DNA from: Candidatus Gracilibacteria bacterium CG2_30_37_12
GTDB taxonomy: Bacteria; Patescibacteriota; Gracilibacteria; BD1-5; UBA2023
DNA length: 11,276 nucleotides
Assembly (NCBI GenBank): GCA_001873165.1
Contig: MNYO01000025.1
Coordinates: 1-11,276, forward strand
Direction of reading: 5' to 3'
Shown here: positions 210-10,899 of the stretch, piece after piece
How positions within the stretch are numbered: the first letter of the stretch is position 1
How the letters are laid out: every line of letters starts with the position of its first letter
Made by a program: the position numbers and the translations under genes
Notes under the pieces: generated by a model
What the model was told of the DNA's origin: nothing
Database searches by the model: none
What the model saw: only the letters and a program-made list of their open reading frames with translations

Positions 210-788
210 ATGAATACATTTATGTTATTGACTCATTCATGAAAGGGGCGAAAGATTATTGCTATCGCAATTCTTAGTAATATGGAGTTCTCTCCACGTA
301 TTCGGGAACTAGTGCTTTCTGTTATTCGTAACAATACCAAATTTTCCTCTCGTTGGGCATATAGGCTCCAATCTGTTATTGACGAATTAGTCAATAATGC
401 CATCGAACATGGATCAGATGGGCATTCTCTTGTGATTATTAGCCTGTTTTTAGATCCAATTGATGGAAGTCTTGAAGTGACTATAACCGATGCAGGAATG
501 GGAATGAAAAAAACAACAGCTGAAGTGCTGACCAAAAAGATGTATGAAAATTATGAACTTATGAAGGAAAATCCTTTGATAAATACTACGATTCGTGGAA
601 GAGGACTGGCTCAGATTGTTATCAATTGGACGGATACTTTTGAAATCCAAGATAATGTTGACGGAAAATGAGGACTGACTGTGAAGGTTGTTAAAAATTT
701 GACTCCTGACTGTCAAGAAGTGAAAAAAACTTCAGAAGAATTAGCACCTTCTCTTGCGGATATAGGTATCGAGGTATCCATTATCTAA
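210..788 (+). CDS. RsbW/SpoIIAB-like serine-protein kinase (anti-sigma type ATPase), UGA = Gly
   Basis: A 192-aa protein of the GHKL ATPase fold. The N box is at residues 58-67 (D-E-L-V-N-N-A-I-E-H). The G1 box is D94-A-G-M-G98 and the G2 box is G130-R-G-L. This layout, a stand-alone ATP-binding domain with no histidine phospho-acceptor domain, is that of RsbW/SpoIIAB kinases, which bind a target such as a sigma factor and phosphorylate a STAS antagonist. UGA codons at 240 and 669 are read as Gly. With them the reading frame runs from ATG 210 (or ATG 222) to TAA 786-788; read conventionally it would shrink to 282-671 and lose the C-terminal strand after the G2 box. There is no Shine-Dalgarno. 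The STAS partner and phosphatase follow on the same strand, which supports the role. The target is not visible in this window. Start choice is the least certain part. Confidence 0.8.
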
Positions 789-843
789 ATATATATCAAA
801 GATACCAGTCTATTTCACATTATATTTTTTACTTTTATTGTAT

Positions 844-1173
844 ATGAAATCCGTATTTACTATCAAGCTTTTGGGTGATCTCGATGCGGTGACTATCGAA
901 CCGTATAGTAGTGTTATCGATAAACTCATTACCACCATCACGAGTCCTTCCGTGGTATTACTCGACTTCTCACAAGTTCCGTATATGAACTCTACGGCTA
1001 TTGGAAATATCGCACACTGGTATTCACTCTTTCAAGACAAAGAATCCGAAGTACACATGATAGGACTCAATGAAAATATTTATGATACTCTCGATCTTGT
1101 GGGACTTTTGCATATTATTCCACATCATACATCGCTTGAAGCCTTTAAAGCTGTTATCGCTGCACAATCATAA
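844..1173 (+). CDS. STAS-domain anti-sigma factor antagonist (RsbV/SpoIIAA-like)
   Basis: A 109-aa single STAS domain. The signature strand and helix run L-D-F-S-Q-V-P-Y-M-N-S-T-A-I-G at residues 40-54. This corresponds to the D-S-S-G phosphorylation loop of SpoIIAA, so Ser50 (or Thr51) is the likely phospho-acceptor. The usual aspartate before the serine is Asn49 and the usual glycine is Ala52, a mild departure from the family pattern. In the known scheme the dephosphorylated STAS protein binds the RsbW-type kinase and frees that kinase's target. Start is the ATG at 844; a TTG two codons earlier is in frame but less likely. No in-frame UGA is present. It sits 55 bases after the kinase gene and 89 bases before the sensor phosphatase, the two expected partners. 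Confidence 0.85.
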   Translation: MKSVFTIKLLGDLDAVTIEPYSSVIDKLITTITSPSVVLLDFSQVPYMNSTAIGNIAHWYSLFQDKESEVHMIGLNENIYDTLDLVGLLHIIPHHTSLEAFKAVIAAQS

Positions 1174-1262
1174 GTCAATACCTTAGACTACTTTATTTCC
1201 TCTTTTCCTCTATAAAAATATCTCCATATTCTTTTTAAGAAATACACCTCCTCTTTTTGTAT

Positions 1263-3797
1263 ATGAGTATCAAAAATAAATTTCTCCTCTTTTTTTCTAT
1301 CATTATTCTAGCTTTTATTAGTACGCTAACTTTTCTGCTTTTTCGAACCGAGGAGATGATCGTAAAAAGTCTCTATAATGACTTTTCTCAGATTGCAAAT
1401 AGTACGGTCAAAGAAATTGACAGCTTCCTATTAAATCGTATCTTGAGTCTGGAAACCCTTTCTCATAATGAAGGAATAAAAATACAAATGGTCGGAACGG
1501 ATGATACGAAAAATGTCCATAAAAAAAATGAAATCAAGGAAAATGCTTCTGTGGAAATGGGGACAGGAAGTATTACGGGGACAGGAACATTCGATTCTGT
1601 ATGAGTACAGAAGACCAGTACTGGAAAAGTTGAAAATACTGGGAAAATTGTACGAAAAAATATTCCGATGAAGCAGGTACTCTCAGAAAAAGAAAATACT
1701 TCGAAAATATTGAATTCATCCATAAAGGAAAATGAAGATCTTCAAGAAGTTCTAAAAGATTTTATCTTGATTAATACGGATTTCCATTCGGTAGAACTTG
1801 TGAGCGTATCAGGACAAACTATTGCATATATATCAGAAGAAACATTGAGTGAGAATGATGCAGTATCACAGAAACTTATTCTCGAGAAACTTGGACGGGA
1901 TCGTACGACAAAAGATCTCTTTGTAAAGGCGCGAGCAGGGGATAAATCCTATTATATAGAAGATGCTGTGAGGGAAGATGATGGGAATGTTACTATTGAT
2001 ATCGCTGTTCCCATATATCTTGAGCAAGACGGAAAGAAATCATTTATCGGTACGATTATCGGAGATGTGAATATGAAACACATCTGGGAGATCACTGATA
2101 ATATCAAAATCGGAACGACAGGCGAGGTGATGTTGTATAATAAATCTGGATTCACCATTGCTGATCGTTACAAGGAAAAAATATTGACACGACCGAAGAT
2201 TATTGTTCCTTCTATTCAAGCTCTTTTACGAGGAGAGCAAGGAGAAACAGTAGAGATATCTGAGATGGGAACGGAGGCAATTACTGCCTATGAACCTCTT
2301 TTATGATACAAGGAATATAAAGGACTCTGATGGGGTATTCAAGTGACGCAAGATACTGATGAAGCTTTCAAAACTATGAGAACATTTACTTTGTATGGAC
2401 TTCTCTTGATGGTTGCTATTATATTGTTGGTATTACTTTTCGTATATTTGATTCATACACGTGTATCAGGACCGATTATTCGACTTGCTCAGGTAGCAAA
2501 GGAGATTGGTAATGGAAATTATTTGGTGGATATGGAAAATATCACTACTTCTATTTCTTCTCGTGATGAGATTAATCTCTTGGCGCAGACATTTCGGGAT
2601 ATGCTTCTCAATCTGAGAACCAATATCAATCTAATGGAACAATATAAACATACGATCGATGAAAGTAGTCTGGTTTCTAAAACAGATATACGAGGAATTA
2701 TAACCTATGCCAATAAACAGTTTTGTGAAAAAGCACAGTTTACCGAAGCGGAACTCATCGGGAAATCACATAATATCGTTCGACACCCCGACACCCCAAA
2801 AGAAACATTTAAAAATCTCTGGGATACAATTTCTGCGAAGAAAATATGGAGAGGTATTGTAAAAAATCGTGCTAAAGATGGTTCTGCTTATTGGGTAACA
2901 GCAATGATTGCTCCGATTTTGGACATCAATGGGAATATCTTTGAATACATGTCCATACGAACCGATATTACTGAACTGCAAAATACCAAGATTCAGCTTG
3001 CAGAATCATTTACGAAACTTCAGGAAAACACCGAAGCGCTGATAGAAGGGAAGCGTATATCTCGTGAATTTGAACTCGCGAAAAATATCCAGGAAACATT
3101 TCTCCCTAAGGTAACGAGTGATTTTATCCCTCATTTCGATACATATTGTGTAGTATATTCTGCAACGGAAATCGGAGGAGATCTCTATGATATTATCCCA
3201 TCGACATCCAAAGATGAATATCTTTTCTATATCGGAGATGTGACGGGGCACGGACTTATTTCTGGAATTATTATGGCGATTATCAGTTCGCTCGTATATA
3301 CATTCAACCGTGAAGTCGGAGGAAATATCCAGTTATTGCTATCGAAGTTGAACAATGTTGTTATGGCACGCATACCACCAAAGATGTTTGTGACGATGTT
3401 ATTTATGAAATATAAACCTGCGACGAAGACATTCTCATATATGGGAGCAGGACATGAGAGATTCTTGATATATAGAAAAAATACTTGAAAAGTGGAAATT
3501 ATGCCTTCTGGAGGTATTGCTGTCGGGATGTTTGCGAATATGTTCGCTAAAGATGTTTCCAAAGAGTTCACGCTCGCATCGGGAGATATGCTTCTCCTTT
3601 ATACCGACGGTATTACCGAAGCGAAGAATCCAGAGAATGAATTATTTGGAATCGAGAGACTTGCCGCGAGTCTTGAGAAACATCATGAACATTCAAGTGC
3701 AGTACTCTGCGATAATATATTCGCAGACATAAAGGAATTTGCTCAGTCCGATATTTTCGTAGATGATATCACTATGATGGCATTCGGAGCAGAATAA
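1263..3797 (+). CDS. Membrane sensor PP2C phosphatase (Cache-HAMP-PAS-SpoIIE), RsbU-like
   Basis: An 844-aa protein once four UGA codons (1602, 2304, 2328, 3486; residues 114, 348, 356, 742) are read as Gly. Order of parts: transmembrane helix about 7-29; extracytoplasmic region about 30-375 resembling a double Cache sensor, with a low-complexity Gly/Thr/Lys stretch near residues 100-130; second helix about 377-401; HAMP about 402-456; PAS about 458-570 of the Aer type, with R507-H-P-D510 followed by a V-K-N-R-x-K-D-G-x-x-Y-W-V segment; linker; SpoIIE/PP2C phosphatase about 600-844. The phosphatase motifs are complete: G-G-D640-L-Y-D, G-D659-V-T-G-H-G, Y-T-D782-G and D834-D835-I-T. It should dephosphorylate the neighbouring STAS protein in response to a ligand outside the membrane and/or redox state inside. 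Start is ATG 1263. No Shine-Dalgarno is seen. The signal is unknown; family assignment is firm. Confidence 0.88.
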
Positions 3798-3849
3798 AAG
3801 AAGTATATTATTTTTGTAACTCTCAGCCCCGTTAACTCCTCTCAATTAA

Positions 3850-4155
3850 GACTTGACTTTGGATGTTAAATGGAAAACTCTGGGGGATGTTAGTATAGTA
3901 GATACATTCGATTTTGCCAAAAATGCTCTCAATGCTTTCAAAAATGGGAACATTGAGACCAGAAAGATTATCTTTCGATCTCTTGGCTCGAACTGGACTT
4001 TGAAAGATAAAAAACTGCAAGCCAATCTGAACGATTGGCTTTTGCTGTTACAGAAATCTCAAAATTCCAACTCCCTCATTTCTATAAGGTTAGAACCGAC
4101 TAAAAAAGGCATCAGGTTGCGGAAACTTGATGCCTCTAATGATAGATTTCAACTA
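3850..4155 (+). pseudogene. C-terminal remnant of a serine recombinase / integrase
   Basis: The frame opens after a TAA at 3847 and reads as the tail of a large serine recombinase: a D-F-A-K-N-A segment, then G-N-I-E-T-R-K-I-I-F, then L-G-S-N-W-T-L-K-D-K-K-L, and finally I-R-L-E-P-T-K-K-G. This is the pattern found at the ends of site-specific recombinases in Patescibacteria. The catalytic serine domain and the rest of the protein are missing, so it cannot be active. The open frame continues without a stop through the antisense of the tRNA-Phe gene to about 4290, as expected when an integrase gene abuts its tRNA attachment site. The homology is recognised from memory of the family, not from a search, and the true end is not defined. 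Confidence 0.6.
4102..4134 (-). terminator. Rho-independent terminator of tRNA-Phe
   Basis: On the - strand a nine-pair stem with one mismatch (arms 4126-4134 and 4108-4116, loop 4117-4125) is followed by six T (4107 down to 4102). It begins 22 bases beyond the 3' end of the tRNA gene, so it most likely ends the tRNA-Phe transcript. It lies inside the open frame of the recombinase remnant. Confidence 0.75.
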
Positions 4156-4230
4156 TGGTGGCGAGGGGCAGAATTGAACTGCCGACACAAGGCTTTTCAG
4201 GCCTCTGCTCTACCACTGAGCTACCCCGCC
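4156..4230 (-). tRNA. tRNA-Phe (anticodon GAA)
   Basis: Read on the - strand this 75-base gene folds as a full cloverleaf. The acceptor stem GGCGGGG pairs with CCTCGCC (one G-T pair), the D stem is GCTC/GAGC, the anticodon stem GAGGC pairs with GCCTT, and the loop CTGAAAA gives anticodon GAA. The T arm is GGCAG-TTCAATT-CTGCC and the CCA end is encoded. It lies 117 bases beyond the dnaE stop on the same strand, with its own -10 box and terminator. A recombinase remnant abuts its 3' end, which marks this end as a probable integration site. Confidence 0.95.
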
Positions 4231-4241
4231 GGGCGACAAGC

Positions 4242-4270
4242 ATTATATGGAAAATTAGGAGAAAGCAAAA
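4242..4270 (-). promoter_or_regulatory. Probable promoter of tRNA-Phe
   Basis: On the - strand a perfect TATAAT (4247 down to 4242) lies 11 bases before the first base of the tRNA, so transcription would start about 5 bases upstream of the mature 5' end. The -35 position (TTTTGC at 4270-4265, 17-base spacing) is weak. It overlaps the edge of a perfect palindrome. Confidence 0.6.
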
Positions 4271-4296
4271 GATTTTTAGAGATTCTCTAAAAATCT
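4270..4296. repeat. Perfect 27-base AT-rich palindrome between dnaE and tRNA-Phe
   Basis: Arms 4270-4282 and 4284-4296 are perfectly complementary over 13 bases around a single central base. On the - strand the hairpin is followed by TTTT, so it may act as the dnaE terminator; it is A/T rich with a very tight loop, so an operator just upstream of the tRNA promoter is an alternative. The surrounding 4231-4347 holds nothing else that I recognise. Confidence 0.6.
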
Positions 4297-4347
4297 GGAT
4301 TTGCATTCGAACCTTCCCTATATTACGAATTGGCGACTCATTCTATT

Positions 4348-7300
4348 TTACCAACCTTTTGCTTGAGTCCATTTCTCGATTGCCCCTATAGATTCTACCG
4401 ATATTTTTGTATCTTTTTTCTGCCCCTGTATCTCTATGTATACCTGAATAGATCACGGAATAAGTCCTTCTAAATAGATTTTGAGATCTACGAGATCTTG
4501 TCGGCACGCAGAAGTAGGAATGTATATGAGGAACTTTTTTATATTTTCTTCTGGGTGAATATCTTGTTGATTATTAGGGTGAACACATAGGCTCCCCGAA
4601 GGCAGTCCTTTAGGATTCGCCCCTACAATTGCATCATTTTCATTTGTATCATCTTCAGTATCTTCCTCTGTTTCTGATTCATTGGATTCCATTATTTCAT
4701 CCTCTTCTTTTCATTTCTCTTCCTTGTTATTTGTTGCTGGTTTCTTGTCGTTTTCGCTTATCTCTTCGGTAAATCCTGAGAGATTTACGAGTGCTTTCGC
4801 ATCGAAGAGATTCATATCATTTGCTTGTTGCCGAGTAGAAGTGATAGTGGAAGGACGGATGGTTTGTGCTGTGACTGCCATTTCTCCATTTTCCTCATTT
4901 CCTCGGAAAATACCCTCGACGAGGAGTATCTTATCTTCTTCAAGAAGGGGAGAAAGTGCTTCATATTCTTTGGAAAATACCAGTACGGTGAATTTGAAAT
5001 CGAAACTATCACAAGTAGCAATAGCCATCATTTTCCCTGTTTTTGTTTGTACGTGTCGTACGGATGTGACGAGACCAATCAATCGAACTCGTTTCATTAC
5101 TTCTTTTTTAGTTTTGGTTGGTGTTTCTATTTTCTTGTCATTATTATTTTCAGGGGAAATAATAATTTCAGAATGAATATTTGGTTGGTAATCAGTTTGA
5201 ACACTGAGGTTTGCTCCTATATCTTCTTCTCATTCATTACTTTGTGAATTTTCATTCTTGATACTTAGTTCACTATGTTCCGCTTTTTTTGTCATCTTCT
5301 TTTGCCACTCGATAATATGTTCCATACCGATAGTCCGTTTATCGATATAGGGTTTAAGTCCATCGAGTCCATGTCCAGAAACTCCATATCCGATGGATTG
5401 TTTTTCTCCACGAATGCGTTCCTCGAAAGTCATGGGTTTCGCTTTTTCCAGAGAAAACCTCAAATGTTCGGTTCCGTGGTCACCAAAGTCAAAAAGTCCA
5501 ATCTGACTCGTCGCTTGTTTTTTCTCGTTTTCTTTTTGAACGGCACTCATTTTCAGTATGGACGCAAAAAGGTTTGCACGATCGCCAAACTTATCAAGTG
5601 CCCCAGAAAGTATCAATGCTTCGAGAGCCTTTTTATTGATAACATCGCCACTATTTCGTTCGATGAATTCATATATTGTCGTGTATGGAGAGGTTTCTCG
5701 GTTGCGACGAATAGAATCGATCGGTCCATCTCCGAGTCATTTTATAGCCTTGAGTCCAAAACGAATATGGTGTCGGTCGATGTAGGTAAAATGTTTCATA
5801 GATTCATTGACATCGGGTGGGAGAATCTCGATTCCCTTGGATTTACATTCTCCGATTTCCATAGTGATACGCTCCATATCTTCCTCGTCTGATACCATGA
5901 GAGCAGTCATAAACTCCGTCGGATAATATGCTTTCAAATACGCGGTTTGATAAGAAATCATCGCATAACAAGCGGCGTGGGATTTATTGAAAGAATAATC
6001 CGCAGCGGGCATAACCATTTTCTCATAGATAAATTCACTCGTTTCTGGTTTATATTCATTGGTTTCTGCGGCTTTTTTCACGAAATCGATCTTGATTTTC
6101 TCAACGACTTCACGGATTTTCTTTCCGACTCATCGACGCAAGACATCAGCTTCTCCGAGCGAAAATCCTCCCATAGATTGAGAAAGTTGCATGAGTTGCT
6201 CTTGATATATAGCGATACCATGTGAGACATTTAAGTATGGTCCCAGATCTCGTTCGAGTTTTCTCGTCTCTTCTTTTACGGTGTCTTTTCAATATTTTTT
6301 CTCGAGAATATCTCTGAGTTCGTCCATCATATAGGAAACTTTTTCTCGTCCGTATTTCCGGTCGATATAGACAGGGATAAATGCCATAGGCCCTGGACGA
6401 TAGAGGGCAACCATCGCGATAATATCCTCGAACGAATTGGGCTTCAAATCTTTGAGATACTTCCGCATCCCGGCAGATTCAAACTGAAATACTCCCGCAG
6501 TATCCCCCTGAGCAAATATTTTAAATACTTTCTTGTCACTAAAACTGATTTTGAGCATATCAATATCCTTCCCATGTATTTCCTTGATAATTCGGAGACA
6601 TCGTTCGATGATGGTCAGATTTCGGAGTCCGAGGAAGTCCATTTTTAAAAGTCCGAGATCTTCGAGAGGTTTTGCACTAAATTGCGTAACGGTCGTTACT
6701 ATATCTTTTGGAGGATGTTGGAGTGGACAATAATCGGTCATAGGACGTGGCGCGATGATAACCGCACAGGCATGTACTCCGAGTTGTCGGATAGATCCTT
6801 CAAGTTTCAGAGCACTATCGATAACCATATGATATCGATCATCGCTGTCATAGAAATTTTTAAATTCTACTGATTCAATCAGCGCATCTTTGAGCTTGGT
6901 TCCTGGTTTTGAAGGAATAGCTGCTGCGAGTTTATTCATCTCAGCAAAAGGGATTCCGAGAGCTTTCCCGACATCCTTGACTGCTGCACGAGCCGCCATG
7001 GTTCCAAAAGTACAGATCTGAGCCACATGATCACTCCCATATTTATTACGTACATATTCGATAACTTTGTCCCGTCCCGTATCGGAGAAATCCACATCGA
7101 TATCGGGCATAGAAACACGAGAAGGGTTGAGGAATCGTTCAAAAAGGAGACCATAGGGAAGGGGGTCGATATTGGTAATATTGGAAAGATACGCAAGTAT
7201 CGCTCCAGCTGCGGACCCACGTCCTGGTCCGACAGGCACGTCATTTTTCTTCGCCCAGATGATAAAATCGGAAACGATATTAAAATACCCATTAAATCCC

Positions 7301-8505
7301 ATCAAATCTACCACAATAAGTTCGTATTCTAGTCTGTCTACGATTGTTTTATTTTGTTCTGTTCCTGTGGTAACTATCTCATTTTTTGTATCGGTATAAT
7401 AGGTTTTTGCGAGTTCTTGGAGTTCGAGCGCAGACATATCCGAGAGTTTTTTCTCGGATCCAGCGATATCTTTTTTGTGGATAAATTCGGTGATAGTCGC
7501 TTCGTCGAGCCCAAAATTATAGCGATGATTCAGTCCCTCGATGCATATGCGACGCAAATTCCATTCCTCCTCCTCAAGTTTTTTCACTCCATGAGGTATA
7601 TTTTCTATATAATTCTTGTAACGAGCTTTTTCTATTTCTCCGAGTTCAAAAGTGGGAATAAGTGTTTTTCCGTACGGGATATCGATACGAATTTTGTCAT
7701 TGATTTCAAGCGTATTATGGATTGCTTCTGGTACATGTGCAAAAAGTTCCGCCATTTCTGCAGGACTTCTGAGGGCATAATTCCCCTCGATAAGAGTGGG
7801 ACGATCTGGATCTTCGAGCGAACGACCATCTCCAATACAATAAAAAAGATCACGAGCTTCCGCATCGTTTTGGTCGATATAATACACATGATTGGTAGCA
7901 ACTACTTTATGTCCATAGGTTCGTGAAAGTTTTACGAGATAATCATTAATTTTCGGTTGATTTCCCCGATCAGGATGCTCTTGGAGTTCCAGATAAAAAT
8001 CCTCTTTTCCGAAGATTCCTTCATAGTACGAGATTCTTTGACGAATATATTCCTCACTTTTTCCGGTAGTAATATGTTGTGGAATCTCTCCCATAATAGA
8101 TCCAGAAAGTCCGATCAAGTGACTTTTGTACTTTTCCAAGAGTTCAAAATCGATTCGTGGTCGACCATTGTACATCCCTTCAAGCCAAGATTCTGTCACC
8201 ATATCGATCAAATTTTTGTACCCTTCTACATTTTTCGCCAAGAGCACGATTTCAAAGAGCTCATTATCCTTGTCTCGATTGGTTTTCCCTTTCTTGGAAA
8301 TAGTTGCTTCCACTCCGATAATCGGATTAATCCCCGCTTCTTTTGCTTTTTTGTAGAATTCAAATGCTCCATACAGATTCCCCGCATCGGTGATGGCAAG
8401 TCCGGGCATCTCAAGAGCTTGTGCTTGTTTTACAAAAGCCCCTGGTTTTCCGAGACCAGAGAGAAATGAATAGTGTGTGTGAGTATGAAGGTGAACGAAA
8501 GACAT
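4348..8505 (-). CDS. dnaE: DNA polymerase III subunit alpha, UGA = Gly
   Basis: The replicative polymerase catalytic subunit, 1385 aa once six UGA codons (residues 739, 792, 923, 1092, 1265, 1351) are read as Gly. The N-terminal PHP domain opens with H5-L-H7-T-H9 and has intact metal-type histidines. The palm carries G-P-G-R-G-S at 426-431, catalytic D468 and D470 in M-P-D-I-D-V-D-F, and the third aspartate D623 in K-M-D-F-L-G-L. The fingers and tandem HhH regions follow, with A-D-V-L-R-R-G-V-G-K-K (UGA at residue 792) and K-A-I-K-G (UGA at 923). An OB fold spans about 1137-1225 and a small C-terminal domain about 1324-1385. No DnaQ-type exonuclease is fused, so it is not PolC. It is longer than the roughly 1100-1200 aa usual for DnaE, because of acidic, Asn-rich linkers on both sides of the OB fold. 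ATG 8505 gives the canonical PHP start; an in-frame ATG upstream is unlikely. It is divergent from the P-loop kinase gene. No Shine-Dalgarno is seen. Confidence 0.96.
4575..4626. repeat. Palindromic repeat embedded in frame inside dnaE
   Basis: A segment bounded by TAGGGTGAA (4575-4583) and its near inverted copy TTCGCCCCTA (4616-4625), with further partial pairing inside. It falls in the linker between the OB fold and the C-terminal domain of DnaE and is translated as A-N-P-K-G-L-P-S-G-S-L-C-V-H-P-N-N on the - strand. Its composition and residues differ from the acidic linker around it. The form is that of small palindromic elements that spread in genomes and can insert in frame, as the Rickettsia palindromic elements do. 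Family identity is inferred. Confidence 0.5.
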
Positions 8506-8575
8506 AAAAATTGAGTTCTTTTGATGGAATATTTTTGGTGAGTATATGGAAAATTTGCAAAAATAAAAATAAACA

Positions 8576-8603
8576 TTGTCTTTTTTTATTTTTTCCATAC
8601 TAT
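8576..8603 (+). promoter_or_regulatory. Possible promoter for the P-loop kinase in the divergent gap
   Basis: In the 134-base gap between the divergent dnaE and kinase starts, TTGTCT (8576-8581) and TACTAT (8598-8603) stand 16 bases apart on the + strand. Both boxes match the sigma-70 consensus at four of six bases, and the gap is A/T rich, so this is a weak call. On the - strand a TATACT (8546 down to 8541) could be a -10 for dnaE, without a clear -35. An AGGGG at 8622-8626, 13 bases before the kinase ATG, is the nearest thing to a ribosome binding site in the window. Confidence 0.3.
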
Positions 8604-8639
8604 CCTGGCAACTTATTTTATCAGGGGAAATATAAATCT

Positions 8640-9200
8640 ATGCAAAAAATAATCTTAGCACTAGCAGGGGAGATGGGGTGCGGAAAGGGAACACTTACAA
8701 AGTACTTGGTTGCAAAATATGATGCAGAAGTGTATCGGTTTTCAAATCCTTTGCGTGACATTTTGGATCGAATGCATCGCGAGAAAAGTCGGGATACTAT
8801 GCAGCAACTTTCAACAGCTCTTCGCCAGATTTTTGGGGACGATGTACTTTCGGAGATTATTCTTGCAGATATTTGACAGAGTAATTCATCCTTTATAATT
8901 ATCGATGGAGTACGAAGAGAAAGTGATATAAAATATCTTCGGAATCTTCAAGGATTCCGTCTGGTATATATAGATGCAGATATTTCCACTCGATATACAC
9001 GTATCACTTGTCGTAAAGAAAACAGTGATGATACGACGAAAACAATTGAAGAATTTATGAGAGATACGGAAGCAGAACCAGAGTTACGAATCCGTGGACT
9101 GAAAGAAATATCCCAGATTGTCCTCGAGAATAATGGAACGATTCAGGAATTAGAAATGCAATTTGAAGACGTATTAAAAGAGATAATTCATTCTTTATAA
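8640..9200 (+). CDS. P-loop nucleotide-kinase-like protein, UGA = Gly
   Basis: A 186-aa protein with an N-terminal Walker A loop, G10-E-M-G-C-G-K16-G-T18, preceded by a hydrophobic strand (I-I-L-A-L-A). A second strand, F-I-I-I-D-G-V-R-R, follows the UGA (8874-8876, residue 79), and a third is L-V-Y-I-D-A-D. The spacing of P-loop, D-G-x-R and later arginine-rich lid-like segment (residues about 120-150) is that of the adenylate kinase / dNMP kinase / dephospho-CoA kinase group of P-loop kinases. The substrate cannot be told. Read with the standard code, the protein would be cut after 78 residues, before the D-G-V-R-R strand. It is a single gene, divergent from dnaE and separated by 199 bases and a promoter from the ribosomal genes. 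Confidence 0.7.
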
Positions 9201-9286
9201 GGAGCTCTAGGGGACTATGCTGGGAATGAGAAAATCTTCCATTTTTGTATTTTTATTCTTCGTTCTATACTTTCCAAAACAAAAAT

Positions 9287-9314
9287 TTGACTCTCGAACC
9301 TTTTTCTATACAAT
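9287..9314 (+). promoter_or_regulatory. Probable promoter of the rpsT-infC-rpmI-rplT cluster
   Basis: TTGACT (9287-9292, five of six to the -35 consensus) and TACAAT (9309-9314, five of six to the -10 consensus) are 16 bases apart, ahead of rpsT. The transcript would start near 9321 and have a leader of about 80 bases. A second, poorer pair (TTGTAT 9245, TATACT 9266) lies upstream. Nothing else is recognised in 9201-9399. Confidence 0.55.
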
Positions 9315-9399
9315 GCCCCTACTTTTTAAACATAGTACTATTTTTGTCTCTATAAAAGTAGTGCCGTTTCTTTTATTTATTCTCTATTTATTCTACTCC

Positions 9400-9669
9400 A
9401 TGCCAAATACTTCATCGGCAAAGAAGGCTCTCAAACAAAGCCAAACCAAAGCATCTAGAAATCGTCGTTTCAATGCACTTTACAAAGAAACTCTCAAAGC
9501 TTTTCAAAAGGCTGTTGTATCTGGATCTGCAGACGCTTCCGATCTTCTTGCGAAACTCTATTCTCGCGTAGATACTCTTGTAAAGAAAAATATTCTCCAT
9601 ATTAATAACGGTTCGAGAAAAAAATCTCGTTTCGCTAAGATGTTGAAATCCGTATCCACTAAGGCATAA
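9400..9669 (+). CDS. rpsT: 30S ribosomal protein S20
   Basis: An 89-aa, highly basic, helical protein with the S20 pattern: N-terminal S-S-A-K-K-A-L-K-Q-S, then R-N-R-R-F-N-A-L-Y-K, and a C-terminal H-I-N-N-G-S-R-K-K-S-R-F-A-K. S20 binds 16S rRNA early in assembly of the small subunit. The ATG at 9400 matches the usual S20 start. The frame stays open upstream to 9217, but that part is Phe-rich and unlike S20, and it would cover the promoter. No Shine-Dalgarno is seen. The stop is 3 bases before the infC start, so the two are cotranscribed. rpsT beside infC is not the usual position in model bacteria. No UGA codon is used. Confidence 0.93.
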   Translation: MPNTSSAKKALKQSQTKASRNRRFNALYKETLKAFQKAVVSGSADASDLLAKLYSRVDTLVKKNILHINNGSRKKSRFAKMLKSVSTKA

Positions 9670-9672
9670 TCG

Positions 9673-10182
9673 ATGGCTCCAAAAGCAAAACGTACCAATG
9701 AAAATATTCGAGCTAACAAGGTTCAGGTTATTGCTGAATCTGGAGAACAACTCGGTATTATGTCTCTCTCCGAAGCTATTAGTAAAGCAAGTGCTTTAGA
9801 GATGGATATCGTAGAGATAGGAATGCAAGGTGGTGTGGTTCTAACGAAGATGATGGATTATGGAAAGTTTCTGTTCAAACAACAAAAATCTCAAAATAAA
9901 TCTCATTCTAAAAAGACCGAAGTTAAAACCATTAAGTTGACCTATAAGATAGGAGATCATGATTTGGAGATTCGAAAGAATCAAGCCATTAAGTTCTGAA
10001 CTGCTGGACATCCATTGAAGATTATACTTTCTCTCCGAGGAAGAGAGAATCACTACGAAGCTCTCGCTATGGATAAGGTTAATGAATTTGTAGCTTCTCT
10101 CGCAGAAGTTTACAAGGCAGATGGAAAGGTAATGAAGGCAGGAAATAATTTCTCCATCCTTCTTCATATTAAAAAATCATAA
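9673..10182 (+). CDS. infC: Translation initiation factor IF-3, UGA = Gly
   Basis: A 169-aa protein of normal IF-3 length with both domains. The N-terminal domain has N-E-N-I-R-A-N-K-V and G-E-Q-L-G-I-M-S-L-S-E-A and ends in the M-D-Y-G-K-F signature. A Lys/Gln/Ser-rich linker follows, and the C-terminal domain has L-S-L-R-G-R-E. The UGA at 9997-9999 (residue 109) lies inside the C-terminal domain; reading it as stop would remove the part that binds the 30S subunit. It uses an ATG start, not the AUU that autoregulates infC in E. coli, so that control is unlikely here. The residues before M-D-Y-G-K-F are G-V-V-L-T-K-M where P-P-V-C-K-I is usual. It overlaps nothing and sits 3 bases after rpsT and 25 before rpmI. 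Confidence 0.95.
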
Positions 10183-10207: not shown

Positions 10208-10408
10208 ATGAAACAGAAAACTCACTCAGGAGCAAAAAAACGTGTAAAAGTTACTGCAACTGGTAAATACATATTTGCTCATTCATGTAAACGTCATCTT
10301 CTTTCTGATAAATCCAAGAAAGCAAAAGGACGAAACAAATATGGTATCGTAGCTCACGGAACAAATAAGCTCGCTGCTCAGAGATGTCTCCCATACGGAG
10401 TAAAATAG
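10208..10408 (+). CDS. rpmI: 50S ribosomal protein L35
   Basis: A 66-aa basic protein with the L35 signature: K-Q-K-T-H-S-G-A-K-K-R at the start, G-K-Y-I-F-A-H-S-C-K-R-H near the middle, and a final C-L-P-Y-G-V-K. It is a component of the large subunit. It has its normal place between infC and rplT. No Shine-Dalgarno precedes the ATG, only an A/T-rich stretch. The gap to rplT (146 bases) is long for this operon and is partly filled by a palindromic repeat. Confidence 0.95.
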   Translation: MKQKTHSGAKKRVKVTATGKYIFAHSCKRHLLSDKSKKAKGRNKYGIVAHGTNKLAAQRCLPYGVK

Positions 10409-10410
10409 TT

Positions 10411-10497
10411 GTCATCCTGAATTTATTTCAGGACCTTCCATTCCTTTCCCTCATAATACGAGAAAAGTTGAAGATACTGAAACGAGTTCAGTATGAC
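10411..10497. repeat. Palindromic repeat between rpmI and rplT
   Basis: The ends GTCATCCTGAA and TTCAGTATGAC are inverted copies of each other with one difference, and each end holds its own smaller palindrome (CCTGAATTTATTTCAGG and ACTGAAACGAGTTCAGT). The GTCATCCTGAA...TTCAGGATGAC form is a widespread small intergenic repeat type in bacteria. It starts two bases after the rpmI stop. It may influence the transcript between the two ribosomal genes. The remainder of the gap, 10498-10554, is A/T rich with nothing recognised. Confidence 0.7.
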
Positions 10498-10554
10498 GAT
10501 ACTATGATAAATGATTCATATTACACCTTTTATTATAATTAACTAACAATTACT

Positions 10555-10899
10555 ATGGTACGCGTAAAACGTGGTCTACAGACTAAGAAACGACACAATA
10601 ATGTCATCGCTCGTGCGAAAGGTTTTCGTATGATGAATGGAAATGTCTTTTCTCGAGCTAAGAATGCTCTTATGAAAGCAGGAACCAATGCTTATATCGG
10701 ACGACGTCTCAAGAAACGAGATTTCCGTGGTCTCTGGACTATTCGTATCAATAATGCGGTTCGTGAACTCGGATTGAATTACTCAACTTTTATCAATCTT
10801 CTCTATAAGAAGAATGTAAAGATTGACCGAAAGGCTCTTTCCAATCTTGCTATCAGCCATCCAGCTGTATTCGCAAAAATCGTTGATTTCGTAAAATAA
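10555..10899 (+). CDS. rplT: 50S ribosomal protein L20
   Basis: A 114-aa basic protein typical of L20 in length and sequence. It starts V-R-V-K-R-G and continues with R-H-N-N-V-I-A-R-A-K-G-F and then A-Y-I-G-R-R-L-K-K-R-D-F-R-G-L-W-T-I-R-I-N. The usual L-N-Y-S-T-F-I-N motif and the R-K-A-L-S-N-L-A segment follow. L20 binds 23S rRNA early in large-subunit assembly. It is the last gene of the cluster, followed by a palindrome and terminator. No UGA codon is used. In well-studied bacteria L20 represses this operon through its mRNA; no recognisable L20 leader was identified here. Confidence 0.96.
   Translation: MVRVKRGLQTKKRHNNVIARAKGFRMMNGNVFSRAKNALMKAGTNAYIGRRLKKRDFRGLWTIRINNAVRELGLNYSTFINLLYKKNVKIDRKALSNLAISHPAVFAKIVDFVK

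Follow-up and report, generated by a model that had tools for sequence, protein, structure and literature searches.

In the SR1 code, reportedly described by Campbell in 2013, UGA stands for glycine. Proteomics of a BD1-5/SN-2 bacterium gave the same meaning, with 97 peptides unique to a glycine reading of UGA and 3 to a tryptophan reading (PMC4032931), and in a BD1-5 genome prfA was present and prfB undetected (PMC6851277). Two Gracilibacteria species, one of them belonging to another order, possess RF2 and lack tRNA-Gly(UCA); the same work raises U34 wobble as one way in which decoding in these groups might become ambiguous and predicts that Absconditabacteria also read CGA and CGG as tryptophan (PMC8629427). 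UGA has been reassigned with loss of RF2 in the Mycoplasma-type code 4 as well (PMC4695839).

Here we analyse a window of 11,276 nucleotides, the whole of contig C107 in the assembly of the uncultured Candidatus Gracilibacteria bacterium CG2_30_37_12 (946,456 bases in 134 contigs, 90.5% complete). A sequence-only reading had claimed that UGA is translated as glycine in five of its genes, and had taken this code to be established for Gracilibacteria, as PMC4032931, PMC6851277 and PMC8629427 bear out. The assignment of UGA to glycine in the window is correct; it was already known for the group and is not new. Judged from sequence comparisons, the genome is almost certainly one of the BD1-5 type of Gracilibacteria, in which UGA would be a minor glycine codon, RF2 would have been lost and tRNA-Gly(UCA) would do the decoding.

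Gene content and reading frames

Read with table 11, five stretches of the window fragment into pieces. Under NCBI code 25 they run through at full length, at 210-788 (two UGA codons), 1257-3797 (four), 8598-4348 (six), 8511-9200 (one) and 9673-10182 (one), and all 14 TGA codons on which the claim was built were located in frame. The features of the window are as follows.

210..788, forward strand: RsbW-like HATPase gene in the UGA = Gly reading; UGA at 240 and 669
838..1173, forward strand: STAS-domain protein (Pfam); without UGA
1257..3797, forward strand: dCache-HAMP-PAS-SpoIIE/PP2C phosphatase in the UGA = Gly reading; UGA at 1602, 2304, 2328 and 3486
4156..4230, reverse strand: tRNA-Phe (GAA)
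4348..8598, reverse strand: dnaE (DNA polymerase III alpha) in the UGA = Gly reading; UGA at 6289, 6130, 5737, 5230, 4711 and 4453
5737..5739, reverse strand: UGA at the Gly of the DnaE K-A-I-K-G motif; 18 of 19 standard-code proteins have Gly here
8511..9200, forward strand: AAA/nucleotide-kinase-like protein (Pfam); UGA at 8874
9217..9669, forward strand: ribosomal protein S20 (Pfam); without UGA
9673..10182, forward strand: infC (IF-3) in the UGA = Gly reading; UGA at 9997
10208..10408, forward strand: ribosomal protein L35 (Pfam); without UGA; stop codon TAG
10555..10899, forward strand: ribosomal protein L20 (Pfam); without UGA

The five code-25 proteins match the Pfam domains HATPase, dCache-HAMP-PAS-SpoIIE, DnaE, AAA-kinase and IF-3 N and C. 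By its best DnaE matches the window is akin to Gracilibacteria, which supply five of the six records found, with best-segment identities of 63-88%; the remaining record, at 38%, is from Thermodesulfovibrionia. TAA is the stop codon of eight of the nine named genes and TAG that of the ninth, and UGA ends none of them. In their two shifted frames the stop triplets number 206 TGA, 134 TAA and 62 TAG, and given this mix the chance that all 14 interruptions are TGA is p ~9e-5. Such uniformity argues against the view that the UGA codons are real stops, brought about by sequencing errors, pseudogenes or programmed read-through, since UAA and UAG never interrupt these frames and the affected genes include dnaE and infC.

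Some gene starts are less certain than the frames. Mechanical start calls make DnaE (8598) and the kinase (8511) overlap, and the true starts probably lie near 8505 and near 8640, respectively, as far as the sequence allows them to be placed. In the HATPase frame an alternative ATG at 282 lies downstream of the UGA codon at 240, so that this UGA may be upstream of the true start. An ORF of 145 aa at 3853-4290 matches no Pfam family. Toward its 3' end it runs antisense to tRNA-Phe (4230-4156), and at least that end of the frame is probably noncoding.

The RsbW-like ATPase, STAS protein and Cache-HAMP-PAS-SpoIIE phosphatase follow one another at 210-3797, an arrangement that resembles a partner-switching signalling module. 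Three relatives (G005, G006, G017) have matches to each of them inside a single locus, and the phosphatase query finds three matches in its own genome. A 182-base repeat occurs near both ends of the contig (22-203 and 11053-11234, 95% identical). Five further copies, 97-99% identical, four of them near a contig start, were found on 4 of 20 other contigs of this genome, another copy lies on contig C69 (L009), and none was found among the relatives' loci compared; the repeat probably broke the assembly. The 96 bases between L35 and L20 at 10403-10498 are 72% identical to part of another contig of this genome (C96, L078 3946-4041) and are perhaps another dispersed repeat.

Residues opposite UGA

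We tallied the residues that stand opposite UGA by comparing the window and 20 further contigs of its genome (229,596 bases) with 800,000 bases of G129 and G081, two prfB-positive genomes of the same class used as standard-code references, with TGA, TGG, CGA and CGG masked. An initial tally of 53 UGA columns (22 Gly, 3 Trp, 3 Cys) was distorted by antisense shadow frames. Hits came from 47 frames; we discarded 9 because they overlapped a better hit, and the 38 kept gave 39 UGA columns. Where 6 or more of the 12 flanking residues are identical, UGA faces Gly in 12 of 13 columns, the remaining one being Leu at the IF-3 site; controls at the same threshold gave Trp for TGG in 22 of 32 and Gly for GGA in 198 of 254. 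The share of Gly is 17 of 25 at a threshold of at least 4 of 12, and a modest 21 of 39 without a filter, where the 18 other columns hold 12 different residues, none more than three times.

The sequence-only reading had argued against a code in which UGA means tryptophan, as in Mycoplasma code 4. Before the shadow frames were removed, 3 of the 53 columns did stand opposite Trp; afterwards the count was 0 of 39, and that of Cys was likewise 0. Codon exchanges were then counted between the nine window genes and 14 relatives' loci of the order, with L134 omitted. UGA codons of the window (n=68) face Gly codons 27 times, UGA 16 times and others 25 times, and relatives' UGA codons (n=290) face Gly codons of the window 193 times; Trp is absent from both sets. 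UGG codons of the window (n=78) face Trp in 65 cases and UGA in none. The lack of any UGA-UGG exchange in 68 + 290 + 78 comparisons refutes a tryptophan meaning, to which we give almost no credence. The same comparisons bear on the idea that UGA encodes selenocysteine or cysteine at some sites: a Cys codon of the window stands opposite 1 of the 290 relatives' UGA codons, as this idea would allow, but Cys faces none of the window's own 68.

Individual sites differ in how well they are conserved, and alignment, the check proposed by the sequence-only reading for DnaE, IF-3 and PP2C, supports glycine at some of them. For DnaE we aligned 19 standard-code proteins and 15 sequences from UGA-reading relatives, 12 of the order and 3 of family f13; L134 and L025 give identical counts and are probably one genome, and as both were included one of the 12 order sequences is a probable duplicate. 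As claimed, the UGA at 5737 sits at the Gly of Lys-Ala-Ile-Lys-Gly, where one standard-code protein has Asn instead, and 4453 faces Gly 16 times, Ser twice and a gap once; at both sites the UGA-reading relatives have GGN or UGA wherever the residue is present. At 6130 the standard-code proteins have Ala 17 times and Gly twice. The sites 6289, 5230 and 4711 fall in gaps of the standard-code alignment: the first is GGN in 8 of the 15 UGA-reading sequences, and the other two sit in variable linkers.

In the phosphatase, alignment favours glycine at 2304 and 2328, where all three relatives have GGN or UGA, and fails to do so at 1602 (Lys and Val in two relatives) and 3486 (chiefly Asp, Asn or Gln; GGA and UGA occur once each among 25). 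At 8874 in the kinase, four of six relatives have GGN and the other two Asp. In the HATPase, 240 is Glu in both of two relatives, and 669 is UGA once and a gap twice. Glycine is not conserved at 9997 in IF-3: outside the order the residue is Leu, in the three solved-structure sequences listed and in one standard-code relative, and of two near relatives one has Gly (GGA) and the other Ala. Five of the 14 sites (240, 1602, 3486, 5230 and 4711) thus show no glycine conservation, which is what real stops might look like.

The nine named genes contain 209 glycine codons, 14 of them UGA; for the sampled alignments the figures are 1008 and 43. In DnaE its share across the order runs from 3 of 113 (L026) through 6 of 97 (window) to 72 of 87 in a genome of the same family (G016). 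The code is common to the order and UGA usage varies widely. In a second genome, G030, 63 of 85 DnaE glycine codons are UGA (the two frames being L136 for G016 and L139 for G030); both frames are without CGA and CGG, unlike the window DnaE. The 72 UGA codons in one dnaE are hard to square with real stops.

Release factors

The assembly holds one class-I release-factor match, which scores 443.5 bits as RF1 (cut-off 423.25) and 257.4 as RF2 (cut-off 370). The loss of prfB that a glycine code would entail was among the checks proposed; RF1 is present, and no RF2 exceeds the cut-off in this 90.5% complete assembly. Loss of RF2 is compatible with a tryptophan meaning too. The RF1 gene itself contains three UGA codons, all facing Gly of the G081 protein, and therefore full-length RF1 itself requires that UGA be read. 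That RF1 is among the interrupted genes, and that no RF2 was found in this assembly, tells further against real stops, and the unconserved sites notwithstanding we regard that explanation as exceedingly improbable.

Across the class, prfB scores over the cut-off in 115 of 192 genomes: in none of the 33 order genomes, in none of the 32 belonging to family f13, which is probably Absconditabacterales, and in 115 of 127 elsewhere. The best DnaE segments are free of UGA in 20 of 20 prfB-positive genomes and carry 3 to 69 UGA in 12 of 12 genomes without prfB over the cut-off; one TGA does occur in a minor DnaE segment of the prfB-positive G081.

The UCA-anticodon tRNA

Neither the pattern search nor the model described below detected a tRNA-Gly(UCA) in this assembly. 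Its 22 tRNA genes, as labelled by ARAGORN, leave Ala, Val, Ile, Lys, Asp, Asn and Pro without a tRNA, and a contig end truncates its tRNA-Gly(UCC). With tRNAs for seven amino acids missing, the absence of tRNA-Gly(UCA) therefore says little, and we infer that it is missing from the assembly and not from the organism. DNA flanking a relative's tRNA-Gly(UCA) had no match in this genome, in a search run without a positive control.

Among relatives the tRNA is widespread. A pattern search of 40 genomes returned one recurrent tRNA with a UCA anticodon, present in five of the six other genomes of the genus. A model (R1) built from 15 tRNAs matched 31 of the 33 order genomes at 103 bits or more, nine of those 31 having contributed to its building, and the next listed match reached 56.5 bits; the two order genomes without a match are the present one and G008, which is called 93% complete. 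The 15 copies, 12 of them distinct, form an alignment of 79 columns in which the cloverleaf is intact. Seven of 22 pairs are changed on both sides among these copies, beyond chance; folding of one tRNA alone showed no excess over chance (z -0.36). Outside the order, stretches of 200,000 bases from each of two further f13 genomes gave no UCA tRNA by ARAGORN, and viral contigs scanned for both anticodon arms yielded one contig for each arm and no tRNA by ARAGORN.

ARAGORN labels the UCA tRNA 'SeC', which would favour selenocysteine, but we take this label to derive from the anticodon. A Sec-type tRNA has a long variable arm and an 8-bp acceptor stem. Both features are absent from the relatives' UCA tRNA, whose acceptor stem measures 7 bp and variable region 4 nt and which carries U73, and selenocysteine or cysteine at UGA appears extremely unlikely. 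All 15 aligned copies have G1:C72, C2:G71, G3:C70 and U73, which PMC8629427 gives as the criteria for glycine identity. These glycine identity bases, and the CCA anticodon of this genome's own tRNA-Trp, also oppose a tryptophan meaning of UGA.

In the order, positions 26 and 44 of tRNA-Gly(UCA) are Watson-Crick paired in all 13 distinct sequences, versus 10 of 108 other tRNAs of the compared loci, and this pair extends the anticodon stem to six pairs. The D-loop has ten bases and lacks the usual GG. One f13 UCA tRNA (G103), the sole example from that family, also has six pairs, with A-U and not C-G at 26:44. The pair is invariant within the order and so shows no covariation, and the copies being related, the pairing counts as one or two events. 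The tRNA-Trp(CCA) of this genome has a five-pair anticodon stem, as expected for UGA = Gly organisms in PMC13092985. The truncated tRNA-Gly(UCC) (L019 1500-1570, at the end of contig C128) has no 27:43 pair and hence a four-pair anticodon stem, the kind discussed in PMC13092985.

Discussion

The evidence fits a simple scheme for the glycine code. RF2, which would end translation at UGA, would be gone, and RF1 would terminate genes at UAA and UAG. A tRNA-Gly(UCA) that keeps the glycine identity set in its acceptor stem and base 73 would bring glycine to UGA, and tryptophan would remain with UGG and tRNA-Trp(CCA). This tRNA would be encoded in the unassembled part of the genome and would presumably be charged by GlyRS.

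The six-pair stem of tRNA-Gly(UCA) could be a fidelity device that stops U34 from wobbling onto UGG, a tentative idea that we think more doubtful than likely. If a long stem does limit misreading of UGG, this would explain the separation of UGA and UGG. The long stem would then be the counterpart of the short, four-pair one through which tRNA-Trp(CCA) reads UGA elsewhere. We found no description of a six-pair stem in the literature that the search covered, which included parts of PMC13092985 and PMC8629427, and the feature may possibly be unreported so far.

Reading raw sequence alone can recover a change of code and the correct amino acid. The practical side is evident from this contig, where gene callers using table 11 would split 5 of the 10 protein frames considered.

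Compared with the Absconditabacteria, this genome shares UGA = Gly, the SR1 code as treated in PMC8629427, but differs at the arginine codons predicted there to mean tryptophan. Its CGA columns have Trp in 0 of 268 and Arg in 135, its CGG columns, only 4 of 30 of which are well conserved, have Trp in 0 and Arg in 9, and a tRNA-Arg(UCG) was found in the assembly. The prediction in the same source that some Gracilibacteria read CGG as tryptophan likewise does not fit this genome, with 0 of 30 columns, 4 well conserved. The split of prfB by order seen here agrees with the species reported there to have RF2. The Mycoplasma-type code 4 is alike in combining UGA reassignment with RF2 loss and differs in the amino acid and in the identity of the UCA tRNA. 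Code 25, as described for BD1-5 and Gracilibacteria in PMC4032931 and PMC6851277, agrees with the window in UGA = Gly, and the genome of PMC6851277 resembles the present one in having prfA and no detected prfB. The two differ in composition, the window having a GC content of 38% versus 28.87% in that genome, and UGA is rare in the present one, a minor glycine codon within a code shared across its order.
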